DNA of 64,000 nt, taken from contig NZ_LZYB01000008.1 of assembly GCF_001677335.1 (NCBI RefSeq), positions 124,001 to 188,000 of the forward strand. Reading direction: 5' to 3'. Source of the stretch: Erythrobacter dokdonensis DSW-74. GTDB taxonomy: Bacteria; Pseudomonadota; Alphaproteobacteria; Sphingomonadales; Sphingomonadaceae. Numbering within the stretch: the first letter of the stretch is position 1; each line of letters opens with the position of its first letter. The notes beneath the pieces were generated by a model that was given only the letters and a program-made list of their open reading frames with translations, ran no database searches and was not told the DNA's origin. Position numbers and translations under genes: made by a program. Shown in pieces: positions 2,902 to 64,000 of the stretch.

Positions 2902-5121
2902 TCAGCTGGCGTTGGTGACGTTGGTGCGTTTGATGGCATTCGCCATCACATCGTCGCGCCAGAAGTGAACCGGTTTCAGCTTGTGTTCGACAAACAGCTG
3001 CATCTGGTCGGTGTAATGCGGACTCTCTGGGCGCGTGGTGGCCGAGCCGAACGGCTGGATGGAACGCGAGAATACCCGCTTGCCTTTCTGCCATTCGACC
3101 CACTGGATGAAGCTGTCGCCGTGCTTGAGGCTCAGGCGGCCGTCATCGTCGACATCCCATGTGGTCGAGGCGCGCAATGTGTCCGAACCACCGTCGAGCG
3201 GAAGGTCGAGATCACCCTGCCGCAGGCGCAGCAGCTCGGCCATCGGCGGATCGAGCCGACCGAAATGGGTCACTAGGTGGTCCGCAGCGGCTTGCACCTT
3301 CTCGCGGACATCGGGAAAGGGCCTGTTGCCGTAATCGGCCGACATGAAGTCGCGGATGACCAGCAGCGCCAGCGCATCGGCGCGGCCTTGCCCGTCGGCG
3401 GTGAAATCCCATGTCCTGAGCAATTCCACCGCCTCGCCGAATTCCTTGGCTTCGGCCGGAATAACGTCAACGGTGTCGAGCGCATCGAACAGCCGCGCGA
3501 CATAGCCTTCGCGCGCATATCCGGTATCGTACTTGATGCGCTCGAGCGCCGCGCGGTCGAGCACGCCCGCCTCCGTCAGCAGTTGGTAGGCGCGGCGCGA
3601 GCGGTTGGTCTGCTTCAGTTCGATTCCCATCACCGGCGAGAACGCGTCAGGATCGAGATCGCTCCCGGCGCCTGCTGCGGTGAAGGGTGTGTTGTTGGAA
3701 TTGTAGAGCCAGCCCGATGCCGGGTTCACGATCCGGGGCAGAGCCTCGTAATCGACCGCGCCCTGCCAGACGAGGTCGCTGCGGTCGCCCGGCAGCACGC
3801 TGCGCCAGTTCGCCTCCACGCCCTCGGGCCGGTTCGGGAGCGCGGCATTGTAGACATAGGCGATGGTGCCGTCCTGGTCGGCATAGATGAAGTTGGTCGA
3901 GGGGATCGCCAGCCGGCTGATCTGCGCTTCCCACTCGGCAAAGCTGGTGGCCTTGTTGAGCCGGTAATAGGCATCAAGCTGTTCAAGCCGGCCAATCCCG
4001 CCATAGCGCACTGCGAAGGCGCCCTTGTCGTTGCGGATCACCGGCCCGTGAACCGAACGCAGCACCTCGCGGCGGATCGGCAGCACCACGGGGCCGAGTT
4101 TGACCGGCAGCGTCACCCATGCGGATTCTAGATCGCGCCATTCGCCGTCGAGCTTGTAGCGGGTGCCGGTCTCGTCGAGTTCGAGCTGGTACACGTCGAT
4201 CATGTCGGGCGTGTTGACCGTGTTGGTCCAGCCCAGATGCTCGTTATGGCCCAGGAAGGGAAAGGGCGATCCGGGAAAGTTGGCGCCCGCAAAGTGCCAG
4301 CCTTCCTCGCTTTCCACCACCAGCTCATACCACGCGACCCCGCCGCGCAGGGGCTGGTGCGAGTTGGAGATGAGGGTCGTCGTGCCGCCGCCCTTTTCCG
4401 GCGCGACGGCAAAAGCGTTGGAGCCCATGTGCTCGGCATCTTCGCCCAGCGGCAGAACGAGAGTGCGGCTGGCTTGTGCGGGCGCGGACTGTTTCTCTGG
4501 CACTGACCCCGGCAGTTGCTCGCGCGGGAAGCCGGGGATGTCGGGGCCATGTTCACGGCGAAGGTCTTCACCCGCCACCAGCGGACCGATCACGCTGTCG
4601 AGCCCGAAGAAGAACGGCTGGCGCAGCGCAAAGCCCGCCGCCACGTCGATCCCCGCCACCGGGAAGAGATTGGCGAGTTTCACCTCGTCCGGGCGCTGCT
4701 GGGCATAGTGGTTCAGCCCTGCCGCATAGGCTTCGAACAGGGCGCGGGTGTCTTCGGGCAGCTTGGGATAATTCGCCTCGGCGGTGCCGCGCGCGTCTAT
4801 CAGGTGGTAAACGTAATCGATCTTCGCTCCGTCTTCGCCTGCGATCGCCCCGTAGCGTCCACGCGCCATGGCAACCACATCCTGAAGGGTGAAGAAATCG
4901 TCTTCCGCATGGGCAACAGCGACTCCGAAGGCGGCGTCGGCATCGGTCTTGCCGTAAATGTGCGGCACGCCGAAATCGTCGCGGATGATCTCGGCCGAAT
5001 AGACGCGGCCAGCAGGCGGATTGGCGGCGCTGGCGAAGAACGGCTCCCAGGTAGCGAGCACCGTAAACGCCAGACAGCCGACCGCTACCAGCGCAATACC
5101 GCCACGCTTCAACCATTTCAT
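2902..5121 (-). CDS. Penicillin acylase-family Ntn hydrolase (acyl-homoserine-lactone acylase-like)
   Basis: A 739-residue member of the penicillin amidase/aminoacylase family (Ntn hydrolases), which cleave amide bonds after self-processing into alpha and beta chains. An N-terminal hydrophobic segment (about 8-24) indicates export. The N-terminal alpha-chain motif is seen around RDDFGVPHIYG (47-57). The processing site is Gly233-Ser234 in HMGSNAFAV; Ser234 would become the catalytic N-terminal nucleophile of the beta chain, and the downstream NTVNTPD supplies the usual oxyanion Asn. Relatives include PvdQ/QuiP acylases that degrade N-acyl homoserine lactones, so signal quenching is possible, but penicillin or other acyl-amide substrates cannot be excluded. 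A GGGGAGAG ribosome site precedes the ATG. It is first gene of a probable operon with the M16 protease. Confidence 0.93.
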   Translation of the reverse strand: MKWLKRGGIALVAVGCLAFTVLATWEPFFASAANPPAGRVYSAEIIRDDFGVPHIYGKTDADAAFGVAVAHAEDDFFTLQDVVAMARGRYGAIAGEDGAKIDYVYHLIDARGTAEANYPKLPEDTRALFEAYAAGLNHYAQQRPDEVKLANLFPVAGIDVAAGFALRQPFFFGLDSVIGPLVAGEDLRREHGPDIPGFPREQLPGSVPEKQSAPAQASRTLVLPLGEDAEHMGSNAFAVAPEKGGGTTTLISNSHQPLRGGVAWYELVVESEEGWHFAGANFPGSPFPFLGHNEHLGWTNTVNTPDMIDVYQLELDETGTRYKLDGEWRDLESAWVTLPVKLGPVVLPIRREVLRSVHGPVIRNDKGAFAVRYGGIGRLEQLDAYYRLNKATSFAEWEAQISRLAIPSTNFIYADQDGTIAYVYNAALPNRPEGVEANWRSVLPGDRSDLVWQGAVDYEALPRIVNPASGWLYNSNNTPFTAAGAGSDLDPDAFSPVMGIELKQTNRSRRAYQLLTEAGVLDRAALERIKYDTGYAREGYVARLFDALDTVDVIPAEAKEFGEAVELLRTWDFTADGQGRADALALLVIRDFMSADYGNRPFPDVREKVQAAADHLVTHFGRLDPPMAELLRLRQGDLDLPLDGGSDTLRASTTWDVDDDGRLSLKHGDSFIQWVEWQKGKRVFSRSIQPFGSATTRPESPHYTDQMQLFVEHKLKPVHFWRDDVMANAIKRTNVTNAS

Positions 5122-49631: not shown

Positions 49632-52600
49632 TCAGAAGCGGTAGGACGCCTTGGCGCTTACCACCTGGGCGCTTGCGGTGTCGCGACCGATGGTGGTGTC
49701 AAAGCCGACACCGACCTGGACCGGACCCTGGCCAGCATGTGCCCATACGCCCAATTCGACCCAGTTCGAATCAGCCTGGTCGATCACGAAGTTCGCATTG
49801 GGCCCGATGCCCTGGGCAAAGTTGGCTCCCAGAAGCTGCGGACCATCCTCGAATTCGTGGACATATTGCGCGGTGGCATTGATCGAGATGCCAGAGCTCT
49901 TGCGCGCGAAGTCCACACCCGCGCGGGCCTGGGTGCTGGTGAAGTTCTGACGATCGATCACCAGACCGAGCGACCCGCCGGTTTCGCGCACGGTCGAAAG
50001 ATCGACGCTCGCATAGCGACCTTCGACACCGGGCGAGAAGGTCCCGATGCCGGTTTCCAGATCCCACGACACGCCAAGTGCACCCGAAATCAACAGATCA
50101 TCGGTGGAGGATTCGAGCGTCTGGCCGCCGGTCAGGAACGATACCTGGCGGTTGATGTCGAAGCCCATAGTGCCCATGCTGAACTGGCCGTCGATGGTCG
50201 GGCCGTTTTCGAGGCGATGACGCGCATACAGCGAGGCTGCATAGGTGTCGCTCTTGACCTGCTGTCCACGCGGCGCGGTCGCTTCAACCGAGTTGAAGAA
50301 GCCCGAAAGACCGATCATGGTGCTGTCGCTGGGATAGAACTCGATACCACCCGACACGTAGACACCGGTAACGTCGCTCTGCGCCGCAAAGCCCGGGTAG
50401 GAGTCGAACTCGCCCGCCACAAGGCCGCCAGCCAGGAAGATGGCAACGTTGTCGGGCAGGTCAGCCTCGGTCATCTCGGTTTCGGTGCCGCTCTGCAGGG
50501 CCATCACATCGGCAGCCAAGGGCTGGCCAAAGGGCGACAGACCAACCTGAACGGCGTTCAGCGGCGCACCGATCATGGCAATCTTGCCACCTGCTTCGCT
50601 GCGATCCGAAATGCGCATCCGGGTGTCGTTGAAGTTCTGCAGGGTGTTGATCGTCTGGGCCGACAGCGAACGGACAGTCTGTTCGGTGAAGGGCGCCAGA
50701 TTGGTGAAGGTGCTCCGGATCGTGTCAGTATCGGCGAAGTCGAGTGCGTAGATATCCGACACAGCACCATTCGAACGGTTCTGGTCGAACAGCTGGGCAT
50801 AGGCGCGCTGGCTCGGATCCGTATTGTCGATCACCGAGGTGTAGCTCGCCGCCTCGATTTCCATCAGCACGGCGTTCTCTTCGTAGATGAAGGTCTGGCT
50901 GAGGATGGCCGAGATGGTGGTCTCGGTGAAGGCACCGGTCACCCCGCCGTCAGCGGTGAGGATGGTGAACTGGCGACCGTTACCGTTGACCTGCTGGCCC
51001 AGACCGATGCCGAGGCCGACTACGCCGCCGACATTGGCGATGCCGGTCACCGCGATGCGGTCCGAATCGCCGCTGGCGGTGATGTCGGCAAGGAAGGTGC
51101 TTCCCGAGGACATCACCAGGTTACCGTCGATGGTGAGCGTGCCGGTGGTGCCCATGGTCGCAGGCGACAGGATTCCGGTGATGCTGGTCACGAAGGGCGC
51201 GGTGACTGTCCCGGTACCGCCCAGCATGCCGGCGAACAGCGTGTAGTCACCGACCGAGTTCAGCTCACCATTGACCGTCGTGGTGCCGCCGAACTGGTTG
51301 ATGTCGATCAGCGAGGTCAGATCGCCGCCGCTGGCGACGTTGAGACCGGCGTTGCCGCGGATCGTCAGCTTGTCGATCGTCACCGCGCTGGAGAGCGTGG
51401 TGGTGCCGTTCTGGCTGAGGGTCACGTCGAAATAGCGCGGGTCGACATTGACCGCCGCATCGGCACTGACCACCGGGTCGATGTTGTTCGGAACAAAGCC
51501 GCTCGCGCCCGGCAGGCCGTTGGCGAGGGTCGGGGCGGGCAGGCCGTCGACGCCGTTGGCTTCGCCGTTCTGGGCCGCTTCTTCGGGCTGGTCGAGCATC
51601 ACCAAACCGCGGCCGGCATTGTCGGCGTTGGCGAGATCAAAGGTCGCCGGGCTTGCGGCGTTTTCGCCGCCGGCGATCGCGGTGATGTCCAGTTCGCCGC
51701 GGTTGTTGGTCACAGTCACCTCGCCCGCGGTGGAGGACGGGGTTGGCGTCGGCGTCGGGAAGGTACCTTCGGTGACGCCGGTGGCAAGATCGGTGCAGAA
51801 ATCGCCCGGGCTTTCAAACTCGACACAGACTGCGCCCCAATCGCCCTCGGTGCCGTTAAGGCCCTGCTCCGGCGTGGTCGGCAGGCCGTTGACGATCTGC
51901 CCGTCGGCATTGATCACGCGGTACATCGGGTCGAGCAGCGTCACCCAGTGATCCGGGTCTTCCCAATCGCCGTTGCCCGCCTTGGCGCCGACATAGCGAT
52001 AGGGATTGGTTTCGACGATATACTGCCAGTAGAGCGACAGCGGCTGGTAGAAACTGGTAGTGCCGATCGAGCTGAACGGCACGTTGAACAGGCGCGAACC
52101 GCCCGACAGCACGCCGATGATCAGGTCTTCGTTGGTGATCGCGTTGTTTGCCGCGTCGAGCACCAGCGGGCCGCCCGAATCGCCGCCGGCCGTGGTCCCT
52201 TCATTGGGCAGGGCATCGTCACGGAAAACGTTGATGTCCTGAACGAAATTCCGCTCCTGCGAGTCGAAGTCGAGCTGGTAGAGGTTCTGCGTCAGGCTGT
52301 TGCCGGCACCGAACAGCACCGCATTGCGGTCCGACAGCGAGAAAAATCCGCCGAGCATATTCTCGGCCGCGCGGCGGCGGAAATCGATGCCTTCGACCGA
52401 GCCCTGGAAGGCATTGCCCGTGCCGCCGTAGCCGACGATGTTGACATGATAGCCAGTGCCCGTGACCGGATCGATCGCTTCGGGCGCGGGCAGGGTGCTG
52501 AACAGCATCGCCCACATCGGGATGCCCACGGCCGGCGTGTCGAGGCTGGCAAGCGCGATGTCGGCCTCGATGAAGCCTCCCGCCGCCGGGTTCTGCAGCG

Positions 52601-53018
52601 AGCGCGGATCGTAGAAGATGCGGTTGATGTTGAACACCTTGAGCGCCGGATTGCTCTGGCCGGTGCCGAACCAGTTGAGAATGCCCGGGAACGCATCGAA
52701 GTTGAACCCGACCGCGGCCCGGAACGTCTCGCCATCATAAGCAGTGTCGGGGCGCGTGTTCACGCAGTGGGCCGCGAACAGTACGGTGCGCGGATTGATA
52801 AGCGAGCCGGTGCAGATCCCGATCCCGCCGCTTCCCACCTGGTTGGTGATGATCATGCCGACGCCTTCGAACGCTTCCTCGTCGTCGACGATTTCCTCGG
52901 AGTCCGTCGTTTCGTTGGGAACGATGGCAAGCGCCGGGGTCGCCGTGGCAGCGGCGGCCAAAGCGAGCGTGGCCGAGCCGGCGAGCAAGATGCGGCGGCT
53001 AGTGTCGGTAATTTTCAT
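49632..53018 (-). CDS. Autotransporter with trypsin-like serine protease passenger
   Basis: A 1128-residue type V secreted protein. A signal peptide ends near TPALA (about 31). An N-terminal chymotrypsin-fold protease follows with His84 (FAAHC), Asp153 (EADIALASLD) and Ser281 (TTAGGDSGGPL); Cys69 and Cys85 likely bridge. A PTPTPTP linker leads to a beta-helical passenger with autotransporter-associated repeats (about 560-760; VNVASGGDL, GTLTIDGNLVMSSGSTFLADIT). The C-terminal barrel (about 850-1128) ends AKASYRF with terminal Phe. ATG at 53018 follows AAGGGG; an upstream in-frame extension has no signal peptide. The protease may act at the surface or release the passenger. Substrate unknown. 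Confidence 0.93.
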   Translation of the reverse strand: MKITDTSRRILLAGSATLALAAAATATPALAIVPNETTDSEEIVDDEEAFEGVGMIITNQVGSGGIGICTGSLINPRTVLFAAHCVNTRPDTAYDGETFRAAVGFNFDAFPGILNWFGTGQSNPALKVFNINRIFYDPRSLQNPAAGGFIEADIALASLDTPAVGIPMWAMLFSTLPAPEAIDPVTGTGYHVNIVGYGGTGNAFQGSVEGIDFRRRAAENMLGGFFSLSDRNAVLFGAGNSLTQNLYQLDFDSQERNFVQDINVFRDDALPNEGTTAGGDSGGPLVLDAANNAITNEDLIIGVLSGGSRLFNVPFSSIGTTSFYQPLSLYWQYIVETNPYRYVGAKAGNGDWEDPDHWVTLLDPMYRVINADGQIVNGLPTTPEQGLNGTEGDWGAVCVEFESPGDFCTDLATGVTEGTFPTPTPTPSSTAGEVTVTNNRGELDITAIAGGENAASPATFDLANADNAGRGLVMLDQPEEAAQNGEANGVDGLPAPTLANGLPGASGFVPNNIDPVVSADAAVNVDPRYFDVTLSQNGTTTLSSAVTIDKLTIRGNAGLNVASGGDLTSLIDINQFGGTTTVNGELNSVGDYTLFAGMLGGTGTVTAPFVTSITGILSPATMGTTGTLTIDGNLVMSSGSTFLADITASGDSDRIAVTGIANVGGVVGLGIGLGQQVNGNGRQFTILTADGGVTGAFTETTISAILSQTFIYEENAVLMEIEAASYTSVIDNTDPSQRAYAQLFDQNRSNGAVSDIYALDFADTDTIRSTFTNLAPFTEQTVRSLSAQTINTLQNFNDTRMRISDRSEAGGKIAMIGAPLNAVQVGLSPFGQPLAADVMALQSGTETEMTEADLPDNVAIFLAGGLVAGEFDSYPGFAAQSDVTGVYVSGGIEFYPSDSTMIGLSGFFNSVEATAPRGQQVKSDTYAASLYARHRLENGPTIDGQFSMGTMGFDINRQVSFLTGGQTLESSTDDLLISGALGVSWDLETGIGTFSPGVEGRYASVDLSTVRETGGSLGLVIDRQNFTSTQARAGVDFARKSSGISINATAQYVHEFEDGPQLLGANFAQGIGPNANFVIDQADSNWVELGVWAHAGQGPVQVGVGFDTTIGRDTASAQVVSAKASYRF

Positions 53019-54246: not shown

Positions 54247-55674
54247 TCAGGCCTCGAAAGCGAGATGTTCGGCCACCCACCACGCGACAAAGCTGACATA
54301 GGAGGGCCACATTTCCTTGCCGGGCCGCGCGCCCGCGGTGGCGGCCGCGGGATCGCCCCAGTCCTCGCGCTGCACCGAATAGACGCGCTTGTCCTTCTTC
54401 CAATAGACGTACCAGGCGTCTTGGGGATCACGGTAGTCGGGCTTGTTTTCGCTTTCGACGACGGGGATGAAATCGGGATGCAGGCCGAACTCGTCGACGA
54501 ACAGCTCGGTCCAGCCTTTCATGCCCGTCCACTTGTCGCCCAGGGGATCGGCGAGGAAGACATGGGTGCTGTCATTCAGGATTTCGTTCATCTTGTAGGT
54601 GCGCATCAGATCGAGCGTCGCCTTGTCCGCATTCCAGCCCAGTTCCTTTAGCGCGCCCGACACTTTGGAGCGGTCTTTAGCGGGGCGGGCGGGATCGAAG
54701 AACTCGTTCTCCCACTTGTCGCGCTGGTCCTTGACGTGTTCGTCGATGAAGCGTCGCGCTTCCTGCGCGTCGATTATTATCCCCGTTTCTGCGTCGGGCG
54801 CAGGCGGGGGCGCGGCGATGATGCCAAGGTGGCGGTCGGCTGGCCGGGTGGTCGTGGCCTCGCCGCCCAACGGTGTGGAGTTGGGCCATGAGTGGCGATA
54901 GGTCCCTTCCCAGCCGATGCGTTTGAGAACGCAGGCGAAGGTGTAGTCGACCACATAGGCGTTGAACTCGTCATAGCCATCGAGCGTTCCAGCATCGGGG
55001 TTGCGCTTGGCCTTGCCGGCCCACATCTTCCGGTGCGCCTCGAGCATTTCGGCGTCGCTCGCGTACTGCCCGGTGAGCGCCTTCACATAGACCATCTTCT
55101 CTTCGATCATGTATTTGGGAAAGCGGTTCTTGAGCCATTCGTCTTCGAGCGATTGCCAAAGACCCATGTCGAAATCGTGCGTTCCGATGCAGGCGTCGAG
55201 GATAGTGTTGGCGAACATAGGCGAATAGCCCGGTTTGGAGGCGATGGTGAGCGCCGGACCATCAAGCGGTTCGCCAAGCAGGATGGCGGCTGCCTTGATG
55301 TAAGCCTCACCAATATCACTTCGCGCATCCAATCGCCGGTCGTGTTCGGCCGCAGCTGTGACCATGCGCTGGTAGCGTTCCAGCGTCATGCGCAGATATT
55401 TCTCCGCTTGCGCCCGATTGCCTTTCGCCCAGTAGAGCACCGCCAGTTCGAGGCAGGATTTCACCTGAGTGCTGATATTCCTCAGCGCGAGATCGACCCT
55501 GCCTTCCTTCAGCTGTTTTTCGACCAGCTCGAGGAAGGTCAGCCCGTCCCGCGAATCCTTGGTTTCCTCGAGACGATCGTGCCGAAGCGCGATCAGATAT
55601 TCATCGCGAGGCAGCTTATCGAGCCTTGCCCAGAAGCGCCTGTCGCGATAACGCTTTATGAGCTTGCCAAACAT
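54247..55674 (-). CDS. Hypothetical protein, 475 residues
   Basis: Not recognised. No signal peptide or membrane segment, so probably cytosolic. The N-terminus is basic (MFGKLIKRYRDRRFW). Residues about 60-115 are TPR-like helices (VDLALRNISTQVKSCLELAVLYWAKGNRAQAEKYLRMTLERYQRM). The C-terminal half is Trp/Tyr/Asp-rich (DKWTGMKGWTELF, DAWYVYWKKDKRVYSVQREDWGD, MWPSYVSFVAWWVAEHL). Codon use matches neighbours, so it is a real gene. It is divergent from a Sel1-repeat protein gene across a 190-base region with an inverted repeat. An effector-immunity protein or uncharacterised enzyme is conceivable, but nothing specific supports either. Confidence 0.75.
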   Translation of the reverse strand: MFGKLIKRYRDRRFWARLDKLPRDEYLIALRHDRLEETKDSRDGLTFLELVEKQLKEGRVDLALRNISTQVKSCLELAVLYWAKGNRAQAEKYLRMTLERYQRMVTAAAEHDRRLDARSDIGEAYIKAAAILLGEPLDGPALTIASKPGYSPMFANTILDACIGTHDFDMGLWQSLEDEWLKNRFPKYMIEEKMVYVKALTGQYASDAEMLEAHRKMWAGKAKRNPDAGTLDGYDEFNAYVVDYTFACVLKRIGWEGTYRHSWPNSTPLGGEATTTRPADRHLGIIAAPPPAPDAETGIIIDAQEARRFIDEHVKDQRDKWENEFFDPARPAKDRSKVSGALKELGWNADKATLDLMRTYKMNEILNDSTHVFLADPLGDKWTGMKGWTELFVDEFGLHPDFIPVVESENKPDYRDPQDAWYVYWKKDKRVYSVQREDWGDPAAATAGARPGKEMWPSYVSFVAWWVAEHLAFEA

Positions 55675-55713: not shown

Positions 55714-55754
55714 GGCAGGCCCAAATATCCGGCCTGCCCCCCGAACAGGGGATG
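55714..55754. promoter_or_regulatory. Inverted repeat and shared 15-bp motif in divergent intergenic region
   Basis: GGCAGGCC (55714-55721) and GGCCTGCC (55731-55738) form an 8-bp inverted repeat with a 9-base spacer. Directly after it is CCCGAACAGGGGATG (55740-55754), which recurs exactly at about 60680-60694 in another divergent intergenic region. Regulatory role inferred from position. Confidence 0.4.
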
Positions 55755-55864
55755 TGCGCAAGCCCTGACGCAATCTATCTTGCTACCTCGCAAGGCTTGG
55801 CGGCATCATGTCGCGAAGCTTCTTGAAGCGATGGGTCGCCGCATCTGCTCTTGGGGAGACTGCC

Positions 55865-57118
55865 ATGTTCCGCTGGTTGCTTGTTCTGTGTGCCGCCCTG
55901 CTTGTGCTGCCCGCCGGAGAGGCGTTCGCGCAATCGAAAGAGGTTGCCGAGGCGAAGAAGGCCTATGCCCAAAAGAAACCGGACAAAGCGAGAGCCCTCT
56001 TGGCCAAGGCCTGCGAGAAGCGATCGGGCGAGGGGTGCGATCTGCTTGCCCTCATGCAACTTGATGGCGAAGGCGGCCCGCAGGATATCCCCGCGGCGAC
56101 AGCCAATTTGGTCAAGGCATGCGATATGACCTATGCCCTTTCCTGCGAAACGGCCACCCAGATCTATCTGGGCGGAGCGAGGGGCAAGGGCCAGATACCT
56201 GTCGATGACAAGAAGGCTGTCTCGCTGGCCCATTTCGGGTGCCGCTGGGGCTCTGCCGGATCATGCACCGACATGAGCTTTTTCTATGCTAATGGCCGCG
56301 GGGTCGAAAAGGACCCCGTAAAGGCCCGTGAATATGCCTATAAGGCGTGCAGCGCAGGCCACGCCACCGGGTGCAGCAATTATGGCTACTTCTTGCAGGT
56401 CGGGACAGGCGGGCCGGTCGACAAGGCGGGCGCCTATCTCTACCTCGACAAGGCCTGCAAGGCCGGGAACAAGGGCGGGTGCGACAATCTCGCCCAGTAC
56501 TTCCCCAATGGCGCGCCGGGCGCAGGACAAGGTTCGGGCGGCGCCGGGCAGCTTGCGCGCGGTCTCCAGTCCTTCAATTCCAAGCTCTATGCCGACGCCT
56601 ATTCCCTGCTGCGCCCCTTCGCCGAACAGGGTGAGGTCAAAGCGGAATACACGGTCGGCTGGATGCTGGCCTACGGGCAGGGGACGAACCGCGATTACCT
56701 CGACGCGGCGCGCTTCCTCGCCTCGGCTGCGCGCAAGGGCGACAAGGAATCGCTCTCGGTCCTCCAGACCATCGCCCCCAAGGTGCGCGAGGCGGAATTC
56801 GTCTACATGATCGACAGCGTCGGCCCCGACATGTCGACCCTTGCCAATTTCGCCTACGAGGTCGAGGTCTATTGCCGCTTCGGGGGCAGGAACTGCACCA
56901 CGTGGAAGCAGCGCTACAATCAGGCCGAGCGGGCGAACAATCAGCGGGCCTTTGCCGAGCAGATGGCCCGTGCCTGGGCGCCGCTGGCGGAGCCGCGCGC
57001 GGGCTTCGGCAACGACCCGCGCCGCGGCGGTGAGACCTTCGGCGCGTGCATCCGCCGCCAGACCCGCACCCGCGGGGTGACGGCGGGGACGACGCTGCTC
57101 GATTTCGACTGCTACTGA
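55865..57118 (+). CDS. Exported Hcp-like cysteine-rich Sel1-repeat protein
   Basis: A 417-residue exported protein with signal peptide (MFRWLLVLCAALLVLPAGEA, cleaving near AFAQ). Residues about 40-215 hold five Sel1-type helical pairs, each with a CX7C spacing: CEKRSGEGC, CDMTYALSC, CRWGSAGSC, CSAGHATGC, CKAGNKGGC. This resembles the disulfide-linked repeats of Helicobacter Hcp proteins. A further Sel1 unit without Cys follows (VKAEYTVGWMLAYGQGTNRDYLDAARFLASAARKG). The C-terminal 120 residues, ending in LLDFDCY, are unrecognised. ATG at 55865 is chosen for the signal peptide and upstream GGGGAG; a longer in-frame start at 55808 is less likely. Confidence 0.85.
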   Translation: MFRWLLVLCAALLVLPAGEAFAQSKEVAEAKKAYAQKKPDKARALLAKACEKRSGEGCDLLALMQLDGEGGPQDIPAATANLVKACDMTYALSCETATQIYLGGARGKGQIPVDDKKAVSLAHFGCRWGSAGSCTDMSFFYANGRGVEKDPVKAREYAYKACSAGHATGCSNYGYFLQVGTGGPVDKAGAYLYLDKACKAGNKGGCDNLAQYFPNGAPGAGQGSGGAGQLARGLQSFNSKLYADAYSLLRPFAEQGEVKAEYTVGWMLAYGQGTNRDYLDAARFLASAARKGDKESLSVLQTIAPKVREAEFVYMIDSVGPDMSTLANFAYEVEVYCRFGGRNCTTWKQRYNQAERANNQRAFAEQMARAWAPLAEPRAGFGNDPRRGGETFGACIRRQTRTRGVTAGTTLLDFDCY

Positions 57119-57139
57119 AAAGAGGGAGGAAGGCGTGCC

Positions 57140-57156
57140 GGGGGCGCTCCGCCCCC
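57140..57156. terminator. GC-rich hairpin between convergent genes, no U-tract
   Basis: GGGGGCG/CGCCCCC with a CTC loop, 21 bases after the stop of the Sel1 gene. No T run. The remaining 200 bases up to the next gene hold only a small minus-strand frame (57202-57273). Confidence 0.35.
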
Positions 57157-57361
57157 CCCCAGTGGCCCCCTTCGCAGCCCTGCGCGCGCGACTCTCCCGT
57201 CCTACTGCACCAGCCGTTCCAGCCCGGCGCGCGCCTTGTCCATCTGGTCGGCGGTGACGGCTTCGAGACACATCCCGACTGGCAGCGGCAATTGCGTATG
57301 GGCTGCTGTAGCCCCCGCGCGGCCGGAGCCGGGAGGCACAATTGCGAACGCATCGTCGCTC

Positions 57362-58270
57362 CTAGAACTCGCAGGTGCCGAGCGTGCGGAAGAACCGGCC
57401 CAATTCCTCGGGTGTCTGCGCGGCCTGGATCTTCTGGTATTGGGCTTCGGTTTTGGTCTGCAGTTCGCGCTCCATCCGCGCGGCGGCTGCCTCATCCTCG
57501 CCGATGTCCTGCCTGAGCGAGATCGCCCAGTCCTGCGCCATCGCCTCGGCGCTCGCCGGGCCAAGATCGGCGGGCAGGCGCGACCAGAAACGGTCGTTGG
57601 CGTTATTGTCATGCATGGTGAGCAGCGCGACCCAGTGCGCAAAGCACATCACCTTTTCCCCCCGGGTCAGCGGCGTCGTGCCGGAATTCGCGCCGATTTC
57701 GTATTGCTCGCCGGCATTCTGGACAGTGAAGCCCTGCGCAGACCCGGCTTCTGCCGCCTGCTTGGCGGCGGTGCGCTTCACGCAATCATCGAGCAGGCCA
57801 TAGGCCATGCCCGGCGCTTGCAGCGAGATCGGCCCCCAGCTTTCCCGGTCGGCGACGAAGGTCACCGCGCCGGACGATTTCAGCTCCTCCAACGCGCGGT
57901 TGGCCTTGGCCGTGTCGTCCCAGCCGCCGACCGCGCGATAGGTGAAGCCCGCGACATATTCGCCCCATTCCAGATCATGCCGCCGCTTGCCGTCGAAGAC
58001 GAGCGCAAGCTTCGGCTTGCGGCCCGCATCAAGCGCGGCGTTGACGATCTCGCCGTCGATATTGTGCATCGACACGTTGGTATTTCCATCGCTCACCCGG
58101 ACGGTGAACTCCACCTTCAGCCCCTGCGCGCCCGCCGGAATGCCGACCGAGCAGATGCCGTTCTTTTCGCTGAACTCGAAATTGAATGATTGTTTCTGCT
58201 GGGCTGCCGCCGGATGCGGGGCAAGCGCGACCAGTGCGGCGGCGAGGCATAGGGACAGACGCGGGATCAT
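57362..58270 (-). CDS. Exported protein of unknown function
   Basis: A 302-residue exported protein; signal peptide LCLAAALVALAPHPAAAQQ. The mature N-terminus is beta-rich (KQSFNFEFSEKNGICSVGIPAGAQGLKVEF), the centre contains AYGLLDDCVKRTAA, and the C-terminal 100 residues are predicted helical with AAAARMERELQTKTEAQYQK and end LGTCEF. Four or more Cys suggest disulfides in the periplasm. No family recognised. It is the last gene of a three-gene operon with the large Sel1 protein (37-base gap). Start at 58270 from the signal peptide. Confidence 0.78.
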   Translation of the reverse strand: MIPRLSLCLAAALVALAPHPAAAQQKQSFNFEFSEKNGICSVGIPAGAQGLKVEFTVRVSDGNTNVSMHNIDGEIVNAALDAGRKPKLALVFDGKRRHDLEWGEYVAGFTYRAVGGWDDTAKANRALEELKSSGAVTFVADRESWGPISLQAPGMAYGLLDDCVKRTAAKQAAEAGSAQGFTVQNAGEQYEIGANSGTTPLTRGEKVMCFAHWVALLTMHDNNANDRFWSRLPADLGPASAEAMAQDWAISLRQDIGEDEAAAARMERELQTKTEAQYQKIQAAQTPEELGRFFRTLGTCEF

Positions 58271-58307
58271 CGGCAGGCTCCTTGTCGGATGAGAAGAAAT
58301 ACCATGT

Positions 58308-60077
58308 TCAGCAATAGCTTGACCGGCAGACGGTGGTGGCGCCGGTCGCATAGCGCACGAAGCTGTCGAAATCGCGCTGGGAGGCTCCGGCGACATAATT
58401 CGCCCAGCCTCCGCCCGAGGATGACGGGCGCGAAGAATAGCTCGGCTGATAACTGCTCACCGACGCGGCGAGCCCGGCCATGACCTCGCCCCAGAAGCTG
58501 CGCGGGCGGTAGCTGGCGGCAAGGCGGCGGTCATATTCGGCCTTCTGGCGGTCGCGCTCGATCGTGCCGACCATCGAGCGGTAGAGCGCCTCGTCGAGCG
58601 GATCGCCGCTTTTCATCGCCACCTGCATGATGCGCTTGGCCTTCTCGCGGTTGACCGGCACGCCGTCGCCTTCCCAATAGGCCATGCCGACCCAGCGCGC
58701 GGCGGCAGTATGGCCTTGCGCGGCGGCGTTTTCCGCCAGCGCGATGGCCTGTGCGCGGTTGGGGGTGTCGATCACGCCGGGTTCGCCATAGGCCAGCCAG
58801 CCCGCCAGCACCCAGCTGGCATCGGCATGGCCTTCCTCCATCAGCCGGGCGATGACCTCCAGCCCATCTTGCCCGCGCCCGGCTTTGACCAGCGCGAGGG
58901 CGGCGGCGATCTGCTCGCTTGCCGGGTATGCCGGGTGGACGGGGTGAACACGGCGCCGCGCCGCATCGGCTGCCGGGCCAAGCGCGCGGGCGCGTCCGCA
59001 GGCGGGTTCGTCGCCCAGCGCGCAAGCGTGGTCAATCAGCGCGATGGCGCGGTCGGGCCAGCGCCCGACCTGTCCGTTGCCTTGCAGGTAGAGCGCGCCC
59101 AATTCGCGGCATGAAGGCGCGTGGCTCTTGTCGCAGCCGTCGCGGTAGGACAGCGCGACTTCCCAGCGCGCTATTTTCGATCCGGCCGGATTGCGGCGGC
59201 CCAGTTCGCCCGCCTCGAAACACCCGGTCGCTGACCCGGCAAGGCAGGAGCGGGTCAGCAGGCGCGAGCCGCGCTCCAGGTTCGCGGCATCACCCGTGCG
59301 TGCGAGGTAGTAGCCATGATGCGCGCAGGCATCGGCATCGCTGGTCGAAGCGCTGCCGCATCCGCGCTCGGCAAAGCGCGCGGCGGCGGCTTCGTCGGCG
59401 GTGACCCCGTCGCCCAGGCGATAGGCGCTGGCAAGCTGGCCGCAGCCCCATGCCGCGCCGCCATCGCAGGCCTTGCGCGCCAGCACGAGCGCGCCCGCCA
59501 GGTCGCCCGCCTCGCGCAGGGCGCTCGCCTGAAGGCGGCAGGCTTCCATCCCGCCCGAGGCGCAGCCCGCCTGCCACATCGCGAGCGCGCGCGCCGGGTC
59601 GCGCGCGGTGCCTTGGCCGCGATAGAGGCCGAGCCCCATCAGCGCGCAGGCTTCCGCATCGCGCGCGCTCTCGCATCCGCTCTGCGCGGTGCGGAAGGCG
59701 AGGTCGAAATCGACATAGCCCGCGCTGCCATTACGAATGATCGCCGCCGCCTCGCCGCAGGCAGCGCCATCGCCCGCGCGGCATCCGGCGAGCCAATAGC
59801 CGACCGCAATGCGCAGGTCGGTGCGGATATCGCCGCTGCCATTGGTGAAGGCCTCGGCCAGCTTGCGGCAATCGGCTGCCTTCTTTCCTGCGCATCCGCC
59901 CGCCCAGTCCCGCGCCACGCCGGGCAGGATGACCGGCATGTTCTGCTTGCCATTATGGATCGCGCCGTGCCGCCAGCCATCGCGGTTGAGCGGCACGCGC
60001 TCGCGCGCGGAGGCAGACTCCGTAAGCAGCATGAGGGTGGCCAGAACCAGTCCGCACAGACAGAGCAGCGCGCGCAT
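58308..60077 (-). CDS. Exported Hcp-like Sel1-repeat protein, nine Cys-paired units
   Basis: A 589-residue exported protein; signal peptide MRALLCLCGLVLATLMLLTE, cleaving near ASARE. The body is tandem Sel1 helical pairs, mostly with CX7C pairs: CAGKKAADC, CRAGDGAAC, CESARDAEAC (CX8C), CASGGMEAC, CDGGAAWGC, a CX10C unit, CLAGSATGC, CDKSHAPSC, CALGDEPAC. Two Cys-free Sel1 units follow (ASWVLAGWLAYGEPG, AARWVGMAYWEGDGVPVNREKAKR). The tail is Ser/Tyr-rich and ends TTVCRSSYC. Same architecture as the 55.9-kb gene. It starts 4 bases after the upstream gene, so the operon is tight. Start set by the signal peptide. Confidence 0.85.
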   Translation of the reverse strand: MRALLCLCGLVLATLMLLTESASARERVPLNRDGWRHGAIHNGKQNMPVILPGVARDWAGGCAGKKAADCRKLAEAFTNGSGDIRTDLRIAVGYWLAGCRAGDGAACGEAAAIIRNGSAGYVDFDLAFRTAQSGCESARDAEACALMGLGLYRGQGTARDPARALAMWQAGCASGGMEACRLQASALREAGDLAGALVLARKACDGGAAWGCGQLASAYRLGDGVTADEAAAARFAERGCGSASTSDADACAHHGYYLARTGDAANLERGSRLLTRSCLAGSATGCFEAGELGRRNPAGSKIARWEVALSYRDGCDKSHAPSCRELGALYLQGNGQVGRWPDRAIALIDHACALGDEPACGRARALGPAADAARRRVHPVHPAYPASEQIAAALALVKAGRGQDGLEVIARLMEEGHADASWVLAGWLAYGEPGVIDTPNRAQAIALAENAAAQGHTAAARWVGMAYWEGDGVPVNREKAKRIMQVAMKSGDPLDEALYRSMVGTIERDRQKAEYDRRLAASYRPRSFWGEVMAGLAASVSSYQPSYSSRPSSSGGGWANYVAGASQRDFDSFVRYATGATTVCRSSYC

Positions 60078-60081
60078 CGCT

Positions 60082-60618
60082 TCAGCGCCCCTGAGCCCTG
60101 GGCTGTTCCGGCGGCGGGGTGCGGCCATACTTGGCCTCGCAGGCGGCGATCCCGGCGGCGACTTGCTGGCCCGCGGCTCTTTCCCGGCCCTGCCATTCCT
60201 GCCGCCGTTGCTCCAGATCGGCGCGGCGCGCATCGGCATCTGGATAATCCGCCGCATCGCGCCACGCTTCGGAAATCCTGGTGCCTTCCGCGATCAGCGC
60301 CTCGAAGCCCTTGAGCCGGCGGGTGACTTCGGCGTTGATCCGCTCGCTGATAGCGGCCTGGGTCTCGGACGGGTTGGCCTGCTGATGCGCCTGGGCGGAC
60401 AGGTTTGCCCGCTCCATCGCTCCGACACGGTCTTGCGGCGCAAGCTGTCCGCCCACCACATAGCGCACCGCACATTCGAAATCGGGTGGCGGTGCGGCGG
60501 TCTCGCCCTGCGCCATTGCCATCGGCGGGTTGGATGCTGCGGCCAATCCTGAAATCGCCGCCGCAAGCAGGAGCCAGCCGTTCCACGCCGGCTTTATGTG
60601 CCCCTCGCAGCCTTGCAT
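60082..60618 (-). CDS. Small exported helical protein of unknown function
   Basis: A 178-residue exported protein with signal segment WNGWLLLAAAISGLAAASN. The mature part has DFECAVRYVVGGQLAPQD, then a long charged helix region (ERINAEVTRRLKGFEALIAEG, ADLEQRRQEWQGRERAAGQQ) and ends with a Pro/Arg tail; Cys residues flank the helical part. No family recognised. First gene of the operon with the large Sel1 protein. ATG at 60618 keeps the signal peptide; upstream in-frame ATG at 60699 is unlikely. Confidence 0.75.
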   Translation of the reverse strand: MQGCEGHIKPAWNGWLLLAAAISGLAAASNPPMAMAQGETAAPPPDFECAVRYVVGGQLAPQDRVGAMERANLSAQAHQQANPSETQAAISERINAEVTRRLKGFEALIAEGTRISEAWRDAADYPDADARRADLEQRRQEWQGRERAAGQQVAAGIAACEAKYGRTPPPEQPRAQGR

Positions 60619-60679
60619 CTTATCGCTCCCCCCTGTGCGCGATCTTGCCGATACTTCGTCGATGCAACAAAAGACAATT

Positions 60680-60694
60680 ACCCGAACAGGGGAT
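60680..60694. promoter_or_regulatory. Second copy of the CCCGAACAGGGGATG motif
   Basis: Exact copy of the motif at 55740-55754, here between the divergent starts of the Sel1 operon (minus) and the secreted protein/response regulator operon (plus). In both copies it lies about 60-66 bases upstream of the minus-strand start codon. Coordinates could be off by one base. Function unproven. Confidence 0.35.
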
Positions 60695-60751
60695 GGCATC
60701 GCTGTGCCATCGGTGCTTTTGTCTGCGCTCGGACAACCACGGAGAGCATAG

Positions 60752-61267
60752 GTGAAACCATCCTGCTGCCCTGCCGCTGTGCTGTTCGCCGCGCCGTTGC
60801 TGGCGCCCTTGGCGCCTGTCGCGGCGCGGGCCGGGTTGCCCGCCGACCCGCCGGGCCTGACCGGGTTTTATGGCGGAAGCCATGTCTGCGAGAGCGGCGA
60901 GCATGGCGCGCTGCTCGAAATCACCCGCGTCGTTGCCAGCGAGACGCCGGAATATCCCTGGCGGCTTGAGGGCAGCTATGCTGTCTTCCCGGTGATCGGC
61001 GGACGGGCCGGAGTCTATGGCGAGATCGCCGGGAGCTTTGCGCTGTTGGGCGAGATCCGCGCGGACGGGCAGGTCACGCTGGATGCGCTCGGCTGGCTCA
61101 TCATGCCGCCTGCAGGTGAGGGCGCGGGCGATCTGGCGGGACGCTTTACCGTGCGCGGCGACGGGTTGGTGCAGTTCGAAGGGCGGATCGAAACCGAGGT
61201 CGCGGACGAATGCGGCGCGGTGCTGTTGACGCGGGCGCTCCCGGCTCCCGAAAGGACGGAGCCATGA
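60752..61267 (+). CDS. Exported protein of unknown function, co-transcribed with response regulator
   Basis: A 171-residue exported protein starting at GTG after GGAGAG. Signal peptide with hydrophobic AAVLFAAPLLAPLAPVAARA. The mature part is a predicted small beta-barrel (GFYGGSHVCESGEHGALLEITRV, SYAVFPVIGGRAG, GSFALLGEIRADGQVTLDALGWLIMPP, GRFTVRGDGLVQFEGRI) with two Cys. No family recognised. Its stop overlaps the response-regulator start (ATGA), so the two proteins are probably functionally linked, for example an envelope sensor or target. Confidence 0.75.
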   Translation: MKPSCCPAAVLFAAPLLAPLAPVAARAGLPADPPGLTGFYGGSHVCESGEHGALLEITRVVASETPEYPWRLEGSYAVFPVIGGRAGVYGEIAGSFALLGEIRADGQVTLDALGWLIMPPAGEGAGDLAGRFTVRGDGLVQFEGRIETEVADECGAVLLTRALPAPERTEP

Positions 61268-61893
61268 ACCTGCGCACGCTGATCCTCGAAGATCTTGCTG
61301 AAATGCGCCTCTGGCTGTCGGAGGTCATGCGCGAGGCCTGCCCTGATGCCGAGATCACCACCGCGCCCGATATCCGGACGGCGCTGGCGATTGCCGGACA
61401 TGAGGTGTTCGATTTGGCGCTGATCGATCTCGGCCTGCCCGACGGTTCGGGGCTCGAGGTGCTGCGCGCGCTCAAGCAGGCCAATCCCGCCGCGCTGTGC
61501 GTGGTGGCGACGATCATGGGCGATGATGCCTCGGTGGTGGGGGCGCTGGCCGCCGGTGCGGATGGCTATCTGCTCAAGAACCAGCCCTCCGCCCTCTTGG
61601 TGCGCCAGATCCGCCAGACGCTTGACGGGGTGCCGCCGCTGTCACCGGCCATCGCCCGGCGGATCATGACCCATTTCCGCCAGACGGGGCCGGTTGTGGC
61701 CGACGCCAATCTCACCCCGCGCGAGCGTGAGGTACTGGGCCATATCGGCAAGGGGCTGCGCAATCACGAAGTGGCCGCCACGCTGGGGATCGGCACCAAC
61801 ACGGTCGCGGCGCACATCAAGTCGGTCTACGCCAAGCTCGGCATATCCTCGCGCGCCGAGGCCGCGTGGCACGCGACGAAGCTAGGTCTGTAG
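61264..61893 (+). CDS. LuxR-type (NarL/FixJ) response regulator
   Basis: A 209-residue two-component regulator. Receiver domain: acidic pocket Glu9-Asp10, phosphoacceptor Asp55 in LIDLGLPDGSG, and conserved Lys in YLLKNQP. C-terminal LuxR helix-turn-helix LTPREREVLGHIGKGLRNHEVAATLGIGTNTVAAHIKSVYAKLGI. ATG at 61264 overlaps the preceding gene. The cognate kinase is almost certainly the convergent histidine kinase gene, whose 3' end overlaps by 12 bases. Confidence 0.95.
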   Translation: MNLRTLILEDLAEMRLWLSEVMREACPDAEITTAPDIRTALAIAGHEVFDLALIDLGLPDGSGLEVLRALKQANPAALCVVATIMGDDASVVGALAAGADGYLLKNQPSALLVRQIRQTLDGVPPLSPAIARRIMTHFRQTGPVVADANLTPREREVLGHIGKGLRNHEVAATLGIGTNTVAAHIKSVYAKLGISSRAEAAWHATKLGL

Positions 61894-63771
61894 CGGCAGG
61901 CCTGCGACGATCCGCGTTCCCTGCGGGTCGCTTGTGAGGGCGAAGCTGCCACCAAGTCCCTCGATCCGGCGCCGCATGTTCCCCAGTCCGCGGCCGTCAC
62001 AGCTGACGGCGGGGTCGAACCCCGTGCCGTCGTCGGCAATGGTGAGGCCCAGAAGGCCATCGTCTGGCGCAATCGTGATCGCGATCCGCGAGGCTGCGGC
62101 ATGGCGTAGCACATTGCTGACCGCCTCGCGAAGCAGGGCTCTGAGCGCGCGCACCGTTTCGCGCGGGGGCGGGGCATCCGGAAGCTCGGGCATGGTCCAT
62201 TCCAGTTCCAGCCCGGCCAGTTCGACCCGGTCGGCGGTCTCGATGCGCAGATCGGCGAGCAGCGCGTCGAGCGCCAGCGGCTCGTCCTCGGCATTGCGGA
62301 TCACGTCGCGCAGGTCGCCGATGGTCTCGCGGATCAGCTCGTCCTTGCGCGCATTGCTGGGGGCATGGAGCGCGGTCAGCAGGTGTGCGCCGATATTGTC
62401 GTGGATGTCCTGCGCAATCCGCGCCCGCTCGAACGCGACACCCCGGTCATAGGCACTGCGCGCCTCGCCCAGCTGGGCCACCAGCGCCCCCAGTTCGCGC
62501 GCCAGCGCCAGATCGGCCGGGCTGAACAGGCGCCGCCCGCGGTTCCGGTCGCGCAGCCGCAGGGCCGCAAACCCATCGGGGCCGGGTACCAGCAGCGAGC
62601 GTCCCTCCTCGTCGATCACGGCCTCGCCGTAGCGCTCGGCGACCGGCTCGATCGCCAGCGGATCGAAGCTCTCTGCCAGCAGATCGCGCCATGCCCGTTC
62701 GCGCTCCGGCCCGGTCGGTGCCAGCGCGACCCCCGCCGCCTCGCGCAGCAACACCGAGCCATCGCTGCGGGGCGGGGCGATCAGCTTTTGCCACAGCCAC
62801 GCCCGCGCCGGGAGATAGGCAAGCGCCACCAGCAGCAGCGCAATCCCGGTTGCCCGCGCCGCGTCCATCGCCAGCACCACGATAATCAGCGCATCGACCG
62901 CAAGCACCGCAAGCCCCGCAGCGACGATGAACAGCAGCTGGAAGGCCCAGCGCCCCAGTCCGAAGATCCGGTAGCGCACCAGCGCAATCGCCAGCGCGAT
63001 GTAGATGATGACGAAAAACAGGAAGCCGAATTCCTCCGGCACCAGCGCCGGACGCAGGATCGCATTGGGAAGCGCCACCAGCGCGATGAACCCGCCAGCA
63101 CCGATCCCGACCGCAGCCCCCAGCCAGATGGCGATGGCCCGGGCGACGGGGTCTGCGCGGGCGACGACGATCTGCGCCGCTGCAAGGGCAAGGATCACCA
63201 CCATCTCGGCAAGGGTGATGCGGTGGATTTCGATCAGGATTTTGACCGGGCCGAAAAACGCCGCAATCGTCCAGGCGCCGAACAGCAGCAGCGCAGCAAG
63301 GGTGATCGTCTGCGCCCCGGGGAGGCGGCTTGGATAGCGGGCGAACAGGGCGATCATGACGATCCCGAAGGCGCTCGCGCCAATCACATTGACCGCAATC
63401 GCCGCCGTCACGACCGGGTCTGTCAGCGGGCCGGGCAGGCTGAAGACAGCAGCGCCGAGGCAGAAGGCATAGGTCGCAGCCCCGCTGGCGCAGAACAGCC
63501 GTGCTGCGCTTTCGCCCGCGCGCAGCGACCAGATCCACGCGCAAAGCACGCCCGCCACGCTGGCGGTGACAAGGCAGGGCCACAGCCGGATGGCGGGCAG
63601 GGCGGGGCCGCTGTCGCTGCCTAGCCCGGTGCCGAGCGCCAGCATGCCCAGCACCGGCACCATCAGCGCCGTTGTAAGCACAGCAAAGGTGACGGCCGCG
63701 GGAACGGGCCGAAAGTGCATGGCTTGGTATAGTCGCTGCTGCGCCAAGTTTGCTGGCAACCCAGTCGGCAT
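61882..63771 (-). CDS. Multi-pass membrane histidine kinase (NarL-type partner)
   Basis: A 629-residue sensor kinase. The N-terminal half holds about ten hydrophobic segments (about 25-335), so sensing is probably within the membrane or lipid-facing. A soluble GAF-like section (about 365-440) follows. The HisKA_3 domain has phospho-His in ERARIAQDIHDNIGAHLL; HATPase motifs are EAVSNVLRHA (N box), IADDGTGFD (G1) and GRGLGNMRRRIEGLGG (G2). It overlaps the response regulator end convergently. ATG at 63771 is preferred; ATG codons at 63822 and 63720 are alternatives. It begins 19 bases after the upstream gene, suggesting an operon. Confidence 0.92.
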   Translation of the reverse strand: MPTGLPANLAQQRLYQAMHFRPVPAAVTFAVLTTALMVPVLGMLALGTGLGSDSGPALPAIRLWPCLVTASVAGVLCAWIWSLRAGESAARLFCASGAATYAFCLGAAVFSLPGPLTDPVVTAAIAVNVIGASAFGIVMIALFARYPSRLPGAQTITLAALLLFGAWTIAAFFGPVKILIEIHRITLAEMVVILALAAAQIVVARADPVARAIAIWLGAAVGIGAGGFIALVALPNAILRPALVPEEFGFLFFVIIYIALAIALVRYRIFGLGRWAFQLLFIVAAGLAVLAVDALIIVVLAMDAARATGIALLLVALAYLPARAWLWQKLIAPPRSDGSVLLREAAGVALAPTGPERERAWRDLLAESFDPLAIEPVAERYGEAVIDEEGRSLLVPGPDGFAALRLRDRNRGRRLFSPADLALARELGALVAQLGEARSAYDRGVAFERARIAQDIHDNIGAHLLTALHAPSNARKDELIRETIGDLRDVIRNAEDEPLALDALLADLRIETADRVELAGLELEWTMPELPDAPPPRETVRALRALLREAVSNVLRHAAASRIAITIAPDDGLLGLTIADDGTGFDPAVSCDGRGLGNMRRRIEGLGGSFALTSDPQGTRIVAGLPLQT

Positions 63772-63790
63772 GGTCCGTCCGGCCCTGCTT

Positions 63791-64000
63791 CTATTCGGCG
63801 GCGTCGGCCTTTTCCTCGGCATAGACGAGTTCTGCAGCGAGCGTCACGGATTTCTCGAAGGCACGGACATTGCGAACGAACACGGTCTCAGGGATCCCTT
63901 CGCCCAGGTAGAGGTCCCAATGGACGAAGGGATCGCCTTCCTGATCGAGCCTCACGGCCAGGAACGGATACTCGGCGCTCAGCTGCATCGCCTCGACCGG
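63791..64000 (-). CDS. Unrecognised protein, C-terminal part (continues past window end)
   Basis: At least 69 residues, possibly starting at an ATG at 63988 (65 residues) but open to the window edge. Sequence AVRLDQEGDPFVHWDLYLGEGIPETVFVRNVRAFEKS suggests a small alpha/beta domain; C-terminus VYAEEKADAAE. No family recognised. It sits immediately upstream of the histidine kinase on the same strand. Confidence 0.6.
   Translation of the reverse strand, partial: PVEAMQLSAEYPFLAVRLDQEGDPFVHWDLYLGEGIPETVFVRNVRAFEKSVTLAAELVYAEEKADAAE

Follow-up and report, generated by a model that had tools for sequence, protein, structure and literature searches.

The genome of Erythrobacter dokdonensis DSW-74 (RefSeq assembly GCF_001677335.1) contains a group of seven genes in a 64,000-nucleotide stretch of contig NZ_LZYB01000008.1 (positions 124,001 to 188,000; here referred to as the window). 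They encode a NarL-type response regulator (RR), a membrane histidine kinase (HK) and five proteins with signal-type N-termini, A to E, of which A and C contain Sel1 repeats. We consider it fairly probable (roughly 0.6) that RR/HK, A, the operon D-C-B and E form a regulon-type module with an operator for RR. An 18-bp site, present upstream of A and between the divergent genes D and E, is predicted to be the operator of this NarL-type regulator family and would tie the E-RR unit to A. Through the D/E site, D-C-B probably falls within the same regulon. A sequence-only reading of the window had already placed these genes in a single pathway because of their density. Gene density alone is weak evidence for this, whereas the conserved site makes a common regulon likely, and shared regulation can be predicted from its presence before A, between D and E-RR, and before related genes.

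The features discussed are the following.
55865-57118, plus strand: A, exported Hcp-like Sel1 protein of 417 amino acids (aa) with a conserved C-terminal region; alternative start at 55808
57362-58270, minus strand: B, exported, N-domain with IalB fold (according to a model) and helical C-domain with two cysteines
58308-60077, minus strand: C, exported Hcp-like Sel1 protein of 589 aa
60082-60618, minus strand: D, small exported protein with one cysteine pair, first gene of D-C-B
60752-61267, plus strand: E, exported protein with GTG start and without Pfam match
61264-61893, plus strand: RR, NarL/FixJ-type response regulator
61882-63771, minus strand: HK, multi-pass membrane histidine kinase; alternative starts at 63822 or 63720
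60677-60694: predicted RR operator in the divergent D/E gap, ATTACCCGAACAGGGGAT
55736-55753: predicted RR operator between the TPR-like gene and A, GCCCCCCGAACAGGGGAT
63791-64000, minus strand: 3' end of a gene for a YbjN-like exported protein upstream of HK, which runs to 64339
54247-55674: weakly TPR-like gene divergent from A (TPR_10 21.2 bits, cut-off 27.5)

In the proposed mechanism, the kinase HK, with many transmembrane helices but no large domain outside the cytoplasm, would activate RR. The regulator would then bind the 18-bp site, with a consensus of about ATYACCYGAWCRGGKGAT that is a palindrome in its cleanest copies, and control A as well as the E-RR unit that encodes it and the D-C-B operon divergent from this unit. 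Secreted, disulfide-stabilised Sel1 solenoids (A and C) together with small partners (B, D and E) would be the output. Their role may be protein binding, either in the periplasm or on the cell surface, whenever the condition sensed by HK prevails.

The organisation of the genes agrees in most respects with the earlier description. D and B, described there as exported and in operon with the larger Sel1 gene, have signal-type N-termini (judged by eye) and form a tight operon with C, with 4 nt between the D stop and the C start and 37 nt between the C stop and the B start. The claimed translational coupling of E to RR is borne out by an ATGA overlap, and HK indeed converges on RR, as both genes overlap tail to tail by 12 bp. 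The seven genes named there are all open reading frames and stand as the module content; the YbjN-like gene and the TPR-like gene had been missed.

A conserved site that probably links the regulator to other genes

Comparison of the upstream regions revealed an exact 15-mer, CCCGAACAGGGGATG, common to the region before A and the D/E gap, a sharing that exceeds chance. Moreover, the D/E gap contains a 27-bp exact match between the genome of the window (G000; G-numbers denote genomes and L-numbers loci) and G045, although the gene in the E slot of G045, E', differs from E. The D/E site is located about 60 bp from either start codon, and the A site 111 bp before A and 65 bp before the divergent TPR-like gene, which may belong to the same regulon.

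A matrix was built from seven sites and used in leave-one-genome-out scans, which were compared with scans of shuffled sequence. With a matrix trained without G000, the D/E site scored 24.5 and the A site 19.6 in the window, followed by a third match at 14.1 (in 64 kb), while the maximum in 120 kb of shuffled sequence was 15.6. The seven-site matrix also found sites it had not seen: in G045 before X (a Sel1 gene) and 209 bp before the YbjN-like gene, in G047 before A and the neighbouring exported gene, and further before an E fragment in G071, the RR remnant of G042 and an HK-RR pair in G097. In the leave-one-out scans, sites of 16-25 bits were obtained in G000, G045, G047, G042, G071 and G097, while shuffled sequence gave maxima of 11-16. 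They lie before E'-RR in G045 and G047, before X in G045, before A, its exported neighbour and E2 in G047, before the RR remnant and A in G042, before the E fragment in G071, before HK-RR in G097, and about 200 bp from the YbjN-like gene in G045 and G047. Three matrix matches were set aside and not used: 21.4 bits inside an HK reading frame, close before the RR that goes with it, in G401 (L105), 16 bits in G319 (L102) and 16.5 bits in L069 at position 3893.

The distribution of the site was further examined with the pattern MCCYRAWCRGGKRATD in a set of 114 genomes of the genus; a second set comprised 347 genomes of the family, and counts in both include the genome of the window. The pattern gave 57 matches in 36 of the 114 genomes, corresponding to 51 distinct sites after merging of overlapping palindromic pairs, compared with 18 matches for the reversed-pattern control in the same genomes. 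The counts are highest in genomes with a close RR/HK or its remnant (G047 5, G000 4, G045 4, G042 3), but there is some circularity in this, because sites in those genomes were already known when the pattern was drawn up. We therefore rely on the leave-one-out scans and on the paralogue loci described below. In G000, G045, G047, G042 and G071, 15 of 18 sites are intergenic, compared with 6 of the 27 remaining ones (Fisher 7e-5), the latter being the 51 sites minus these 18 and minus six before RR paralogues. Without the seven training sites the proportion is 8/11 (p 0.008). The other 21 of the 27 lie inside called genes, as chance predicts.

Six other genomes, which were not a source of the pattern, carry the site 57-104 bp before a paralogous RR-HK operon (L197-L202, from G102, G009, G097, G043, G001 and G017, respectively). 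These copies are self-complementary at 16-18 of 18 positions, and a value of at least 16 is reached by 0.02% of the 18-mers of the window; the corresponding regulators are 33-37% identical to the RR of the window. The sites in the module genomes are self-complementary at 8-14 of 18. Hence, the conserved site is found at the regulator's own promoter in several settings: three genomes (G000, G045 and G047) have it upstream of the E-slot-RR unit, G042 has it before the RR remnant, and it precedes the six paralogous RR genes. In five of the six paralogue loci a large gene (488-849 aa) lies divergently across the palindrome; the one in L199 (849 aa), the only one tested, contains a MACPF domain (39.2 bits, cut-off 21.5).

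These paralogous operons bear on the question of which protein would recognise the site. It may be imagined that another dimeric regulator, a second one of LuxR/NarL type, controls both the Sel1 genes and the two-component system, with RR being a mere target. G071 would fit this idea, as it has sites without a detected HK of the window type, and so would G042, which keeps the site of A without RR. However, six paralogous RR-HK operons with the palindromic site directly upstream are as expected of autoregulation within the RR family, and we regard control by a second regulator as improbable. In G071 there are two pattern matches, one of them before the E fragment, and weaker sites by the A gene. 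Another site in this genome lies 18 bp before a gene whose exported product (293 aa) contains a bacterial SH3 domain (L196:2865-3779; 30.6 bits). A protein that looks similar by eye is encoded two genes after C in G070 (L071:4814-5617), with an SH3_3 score of 20.2 bits, below the cut-off.

Distribution and gene order in relatives

The genes of the module are rare. A full-length match to C was found in four of the 100 genus genomes examined (G000, G042, G070 and G106) and, at E<=1e-30, in 8 of the 347 family genomes. HK was detected in 4/114 genus genomes at E<=1e-40 and in 10/347 family genomes at 1e-60, A in 7/114 at 1e-25 (some matches being partial) and E in 3/114. E', which takes the slot of E in G045 and G047, was found in 4/114, two of them weak and none in G000.

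Two of the genomes closest to G000, G045 and G047 (GlnA 97% identical), retain much of the arrangement. The order in G045 is A', X, Y, D (divergent), E'-RR, HK, YbjN. This is the frame of the window, with X-Y in place of C-B and E' in place of E. G047 has E'-RR, HK and YbjN at one place; a second group, at a distance of 47-49 kb, consists of an exported gene, A, X, a Sel1 gene with CX7C pairs and a homologue of E. Another E homologue of G047 overlaps (ATGA) a gene with three CX7C pairs and without a Pfam Sel1 match. Both of these G047 loci have an E-family gene in the company of CX7C Sel1 genes. The ATGA overlap of the E slot with RR is kept in 3/3 genomes despite the dissimilarity of E and E'. 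In G042 (GlnA 86%), C-B-A is intact. Next to it lies a deletion remnant of RR/HK, in which residues 7-113 of HK directly adjoin residues 110-24 of RR; D, E and YbjN were not found. Near this remnant, a DDE transposase (DDE_Tnp_1_4, 554 bits) lies between near-duplicate small genes (L067:6872-9437). A more distant HK-RR pair without other module genes is present in G097.

Outside these genomes, C and B are found on their own. A gene for the B N-domain adjoins C in 8 of the 10 other C homologues (seven by BLAST, G251 by position and alignment), the exceptions being G070 and G220. We had considered that C-B always goes with RR/HK, and rejected this in view of the free-standing C-B pairs. In G070, C is followed by two small genes and then by an OmpR-type regulator and a kinase (L071:2360-7794), a neighbourhood of Sel1 gene and two-component system of another type. 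In L098-L101, C lies near a gene resembling trmFO (GIDA family, 312 bits, tested in L100, the rest judged by eye), with gyrA nearby in L100 and L101 (tested in L100); this suggests an older chromosomal home of C-B. Co-occurrence, which the sequence-only reading had expected in relatives, is thus mixed: A is present in all three genomes with a close RR/HK (G000, G045 and G047), next to it in two of them and at a distance of about 49 kb in the other, and E is found with Sel1 genes in G047, while C-B may stand alone.

Several observations weigh against a regulon of this kind. Regarding distribution, G055 and G120, which by GlnA (97%) are as close to G000 as G045 and G047, were not matched by the profiles of HK, A or E. 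None of the 10 other C homologues adjoins an intact homologue of the RR/HK of the window, and G053 and G071 have A without an HK-profile match at E<=1e-40. In G071 there is also none at E<=0.001 despite its sites (RR was not searched genome-wide), so that the site can exist without a kinase of the window type; conversely, G053 has A without the site. After the loss of RR/HK, G042 still keeps A and its site. Regarding the site itself, the nine other C loci that have no RR/HK remnant show no match above 14.3 and none directly before C, and in G000 there is no site before HK or YbjN. Once G045 is left out, its A site falls outside the six best matches, and the A site of G042 (16.2, shuffled maximum 14.0) and one site of G047 (17.2, maximum 16.0) are weak. 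In G000, a site inside a coding sequence on another contig scores 19.9, slightly above the A site, and a further site 15.9, while in G047 a site of 22.0 precedes an unrelated-looking gene. Finally, both sites of the window are self-complementary at 10/18, a value reached by 7.4% of its 18-mers, and the palindrome reading therefore rests on the relatives and the paralogues.

Part of this could be explained by chance neighbourhood in a variable region, where an independent C-B pair, an independent two-component system and scattered Sel1 genes have come together and the site serves RR autoregulation only. C occurs without a two-component system of the window type in nine loci and beside its remnant in one, and the patchy distribution among close genomes as well as the A-like score inside an unrelated coding sequence of G000 would be expected. 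The site, however, also precedes genes other than RR, namely A in G000, G042 and G047 (in G045 by the pattern only), X in G045 and the E-Sel1 pair in G047, and E accompanies Sel1 genes in G047, but RR in the window. We therefore judge a chance assembly to be rather unlikely and favour a regulon commanded by RR.

The rotating gene content allows for one more explanation, in which the Sel1 genes, D and E represent an immunity- or adhesin-type array instead of a signalling output. C/B is exchanged for X/Y and E for E', three Sel1-type genes follow each other in G047, and the Y protein of G045 scores 23.6 bits with Adhesin_E, just below the cut-off of 23.7. Against this, no toxin was recognised in the loci read (no directed toxin search was made) and PADLOC gave no match for A-E at E<=0.01. 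An array of this type appears very doubtful to us, compared with exported proteins under the control of RR.

The exported proteins

A and C match the Pfam Sel1 family with 73.6 bits (1.2e-20) and 48.4 bits (1.1e-12), respectively (cut-off 30.7), and their hydrophobic N-terminal segments are of the secretion type by hydropathy, which predicts export. Among solved structures, HcpC (1ouv) comes closest to both by sequence (A 1.5e-22, C 2.8e-16). A contains five CX7C pairs at a spacing of 36-40 residues (mean of 2000 shuffles 0.5, maximum 4), and C seven CX7C pairs plus one CX8C and one CX10C (mean 0.75, maximum 4). The description of both as Hcp-like Sel1 proteins can be maintained, but not that almost all repeats carry such a pair, since the cysteine pairs are absent from the later Sel1-like repeats (about 240-296 in A and 405-490 in C). 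After the cleavage sites, placed by eye, all five exported proteins have an even number of cysteines (A 14, B 4, C 20, D 2, E 2). The Helicobacter proteins HcpB (1klx) and HcpC are likewise secreted Sel1-type proteins with CX7C pairs; unlike these, A and C add cysteine-free repeats and C-terminal regions, and we transfer no known role to them. A search of plasmids for A at E<=1e-20 gave no match. Sel1 solenoids in general bind proteins, and we read the exported set accordingly: our best guess is that it consists of protein-binding scaffolds and their partners in an envelope response. The role in envelope-stress sensing that was suggested before would be a guess.

None of B, D and E matches a Pfam family above cut-off. 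Structure prediction, proposed for them in the sequence-only reading, was applied to B and E. The modelled N-domain of B resembles IalB, while the model of E, with a predicted local distance difference test score (pLDDT) of 40.5, is too poor for use. The model of the B N-domain (pLDDT 62, built from two sequences) aligns with IalB (invasion associated protein B, 3dtd) with a Z score of 10.5 and a root-mean-square deviation of 2.6 over 123 of 143 residues at 9% identity, and the next fold match of this domain has a Z score of 5.7. The rows for the helical domain in this comparison, Wzc among them, were not used. Foldseek returned nothing for the B model at E<=0.001, and none of nine B N-domain homologues matches the IalB Pfam models at E<=1; an alignment of the nine shows two invariant cysteines. 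The domain may have the IalB fold, judging by this model of moderate confidence. In G296 (L095) and G236 (L096), each of the two B domains has a gene of its own, one on either side of C, so that the B of the window looks like a natural fusion.

D is 75% identical over residues 41-178 to the D beside the RR locus of G045. We had considered the helical domain of B and D as one family; this was dropped, since a comparison showed no detectable relation. In G319, which belongs to another genus, a small protein with a D-like cysteine pair (by eye) and no Pfam match is encoded about 1.1 kb from an HK homologue (L102:5975-6370). The idea that E is an orphan, suggested by 41 genomes, was ruled out by its relatives in G047 and G071. 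Against solved structures, the best match of the E profile was streptavidin, which is not significant (E 0.058), and a plasmid search at E<=1e-5 gave no match. A profile comparison of E and E' showed no similarity (probability 0.15%), this being a weak test with two sequences per profile.

The two-component system and comparison with ExoR-ExoS-ChvI

RR contains Response_reg (58.3 bits, cut-off 30.2; 1e-15) and GerE (58.3 bits, cut-off 23.5; 5.9e-16) domains and is 79% identical in G045 and G047. HK matches HATPase_c with 39.8 bits (cut-off 26.4), and HisKA_3 stays just below its cut-off (22.5 and 24 bits). Its hydropathy plot shows membrane segments with only short gaps over residues 22-327, followed by the kinase part, and, as far as hydropathy can tell, gives no indication of a large extracytoplasmic domain. 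The adjacent YbjN-like gene, which has the same position in G045 and G047, passes the gathering score of the YbjN family (PF10722; 27.2 bits, cut-off 22), but the protein of the window has a signal-type N-terminus.

A connection between an exported Sel1-repeat protein and a two-component system has been described for ExoR-ExoS-ChvI, the RSI switch of Rhizobiales. There, ExoR binds the periplasmic domain of ExoS (residues 68-278), and ExoS-ChvI is a pair of the EnvZ/OmpR type (PMC4550343). The system of the window differs, as its RR is NarL-type, its HK lacks a large loop, and the predicted link runs through a DNA site and not through a protein that binds the kinase. Since HK has no such periplasmic domain by hydropathy, the resemblance to ExoR-ExoS is one of theme and not of membership. 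Correspondingly, A (18.3 bits) and C (14.8 bits) are far from the cut-off of 450 of an ExoR-specific hidden Markov model.

In the open-access literature (subscription papers being outside the scope), CCCGAACAGGGGAT gave no match and ACCTGATCAGGT was found only in a paper on mushroom ribosomal DNA. The combination of "Sel1 repeat", Erythrobacter and response regulator gave no match, and Sel1 with Sphingomonadales gave only the ExoR paper (PMC4550343) and one on rabbit gut microbiota.

The analysis provides a concrete predicted operator and a target list for exported proteins without families, and it points to a possible second way, besides ExoR-ExoS, of tying secreted Sel1 proteins to two-component signalling. 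A second test system is at hand in the paralogous RR-HK loci, whose palindrome is nearly perfect. As a tentative extension, a NarL-type two-component family of Sphingomonadales with its own palindromic operator might represent a signalling type not described before and command interchangeable secreted, disulfide-rich Sel1 scaffolds and small partners. Partners like B might arise by fusion of scaffold-flanking genes, and the coupled slot before RR might be occupied anew by exported proteins unrelated to each other (E or E'), possibly reporting on or feeding back to HK.

Two genes away from A, the window further encodes an autotransporter with a trypsin-like passenger (49632-53018; Autotransporter 100.1 bits, Trypsin 31.5 bits).

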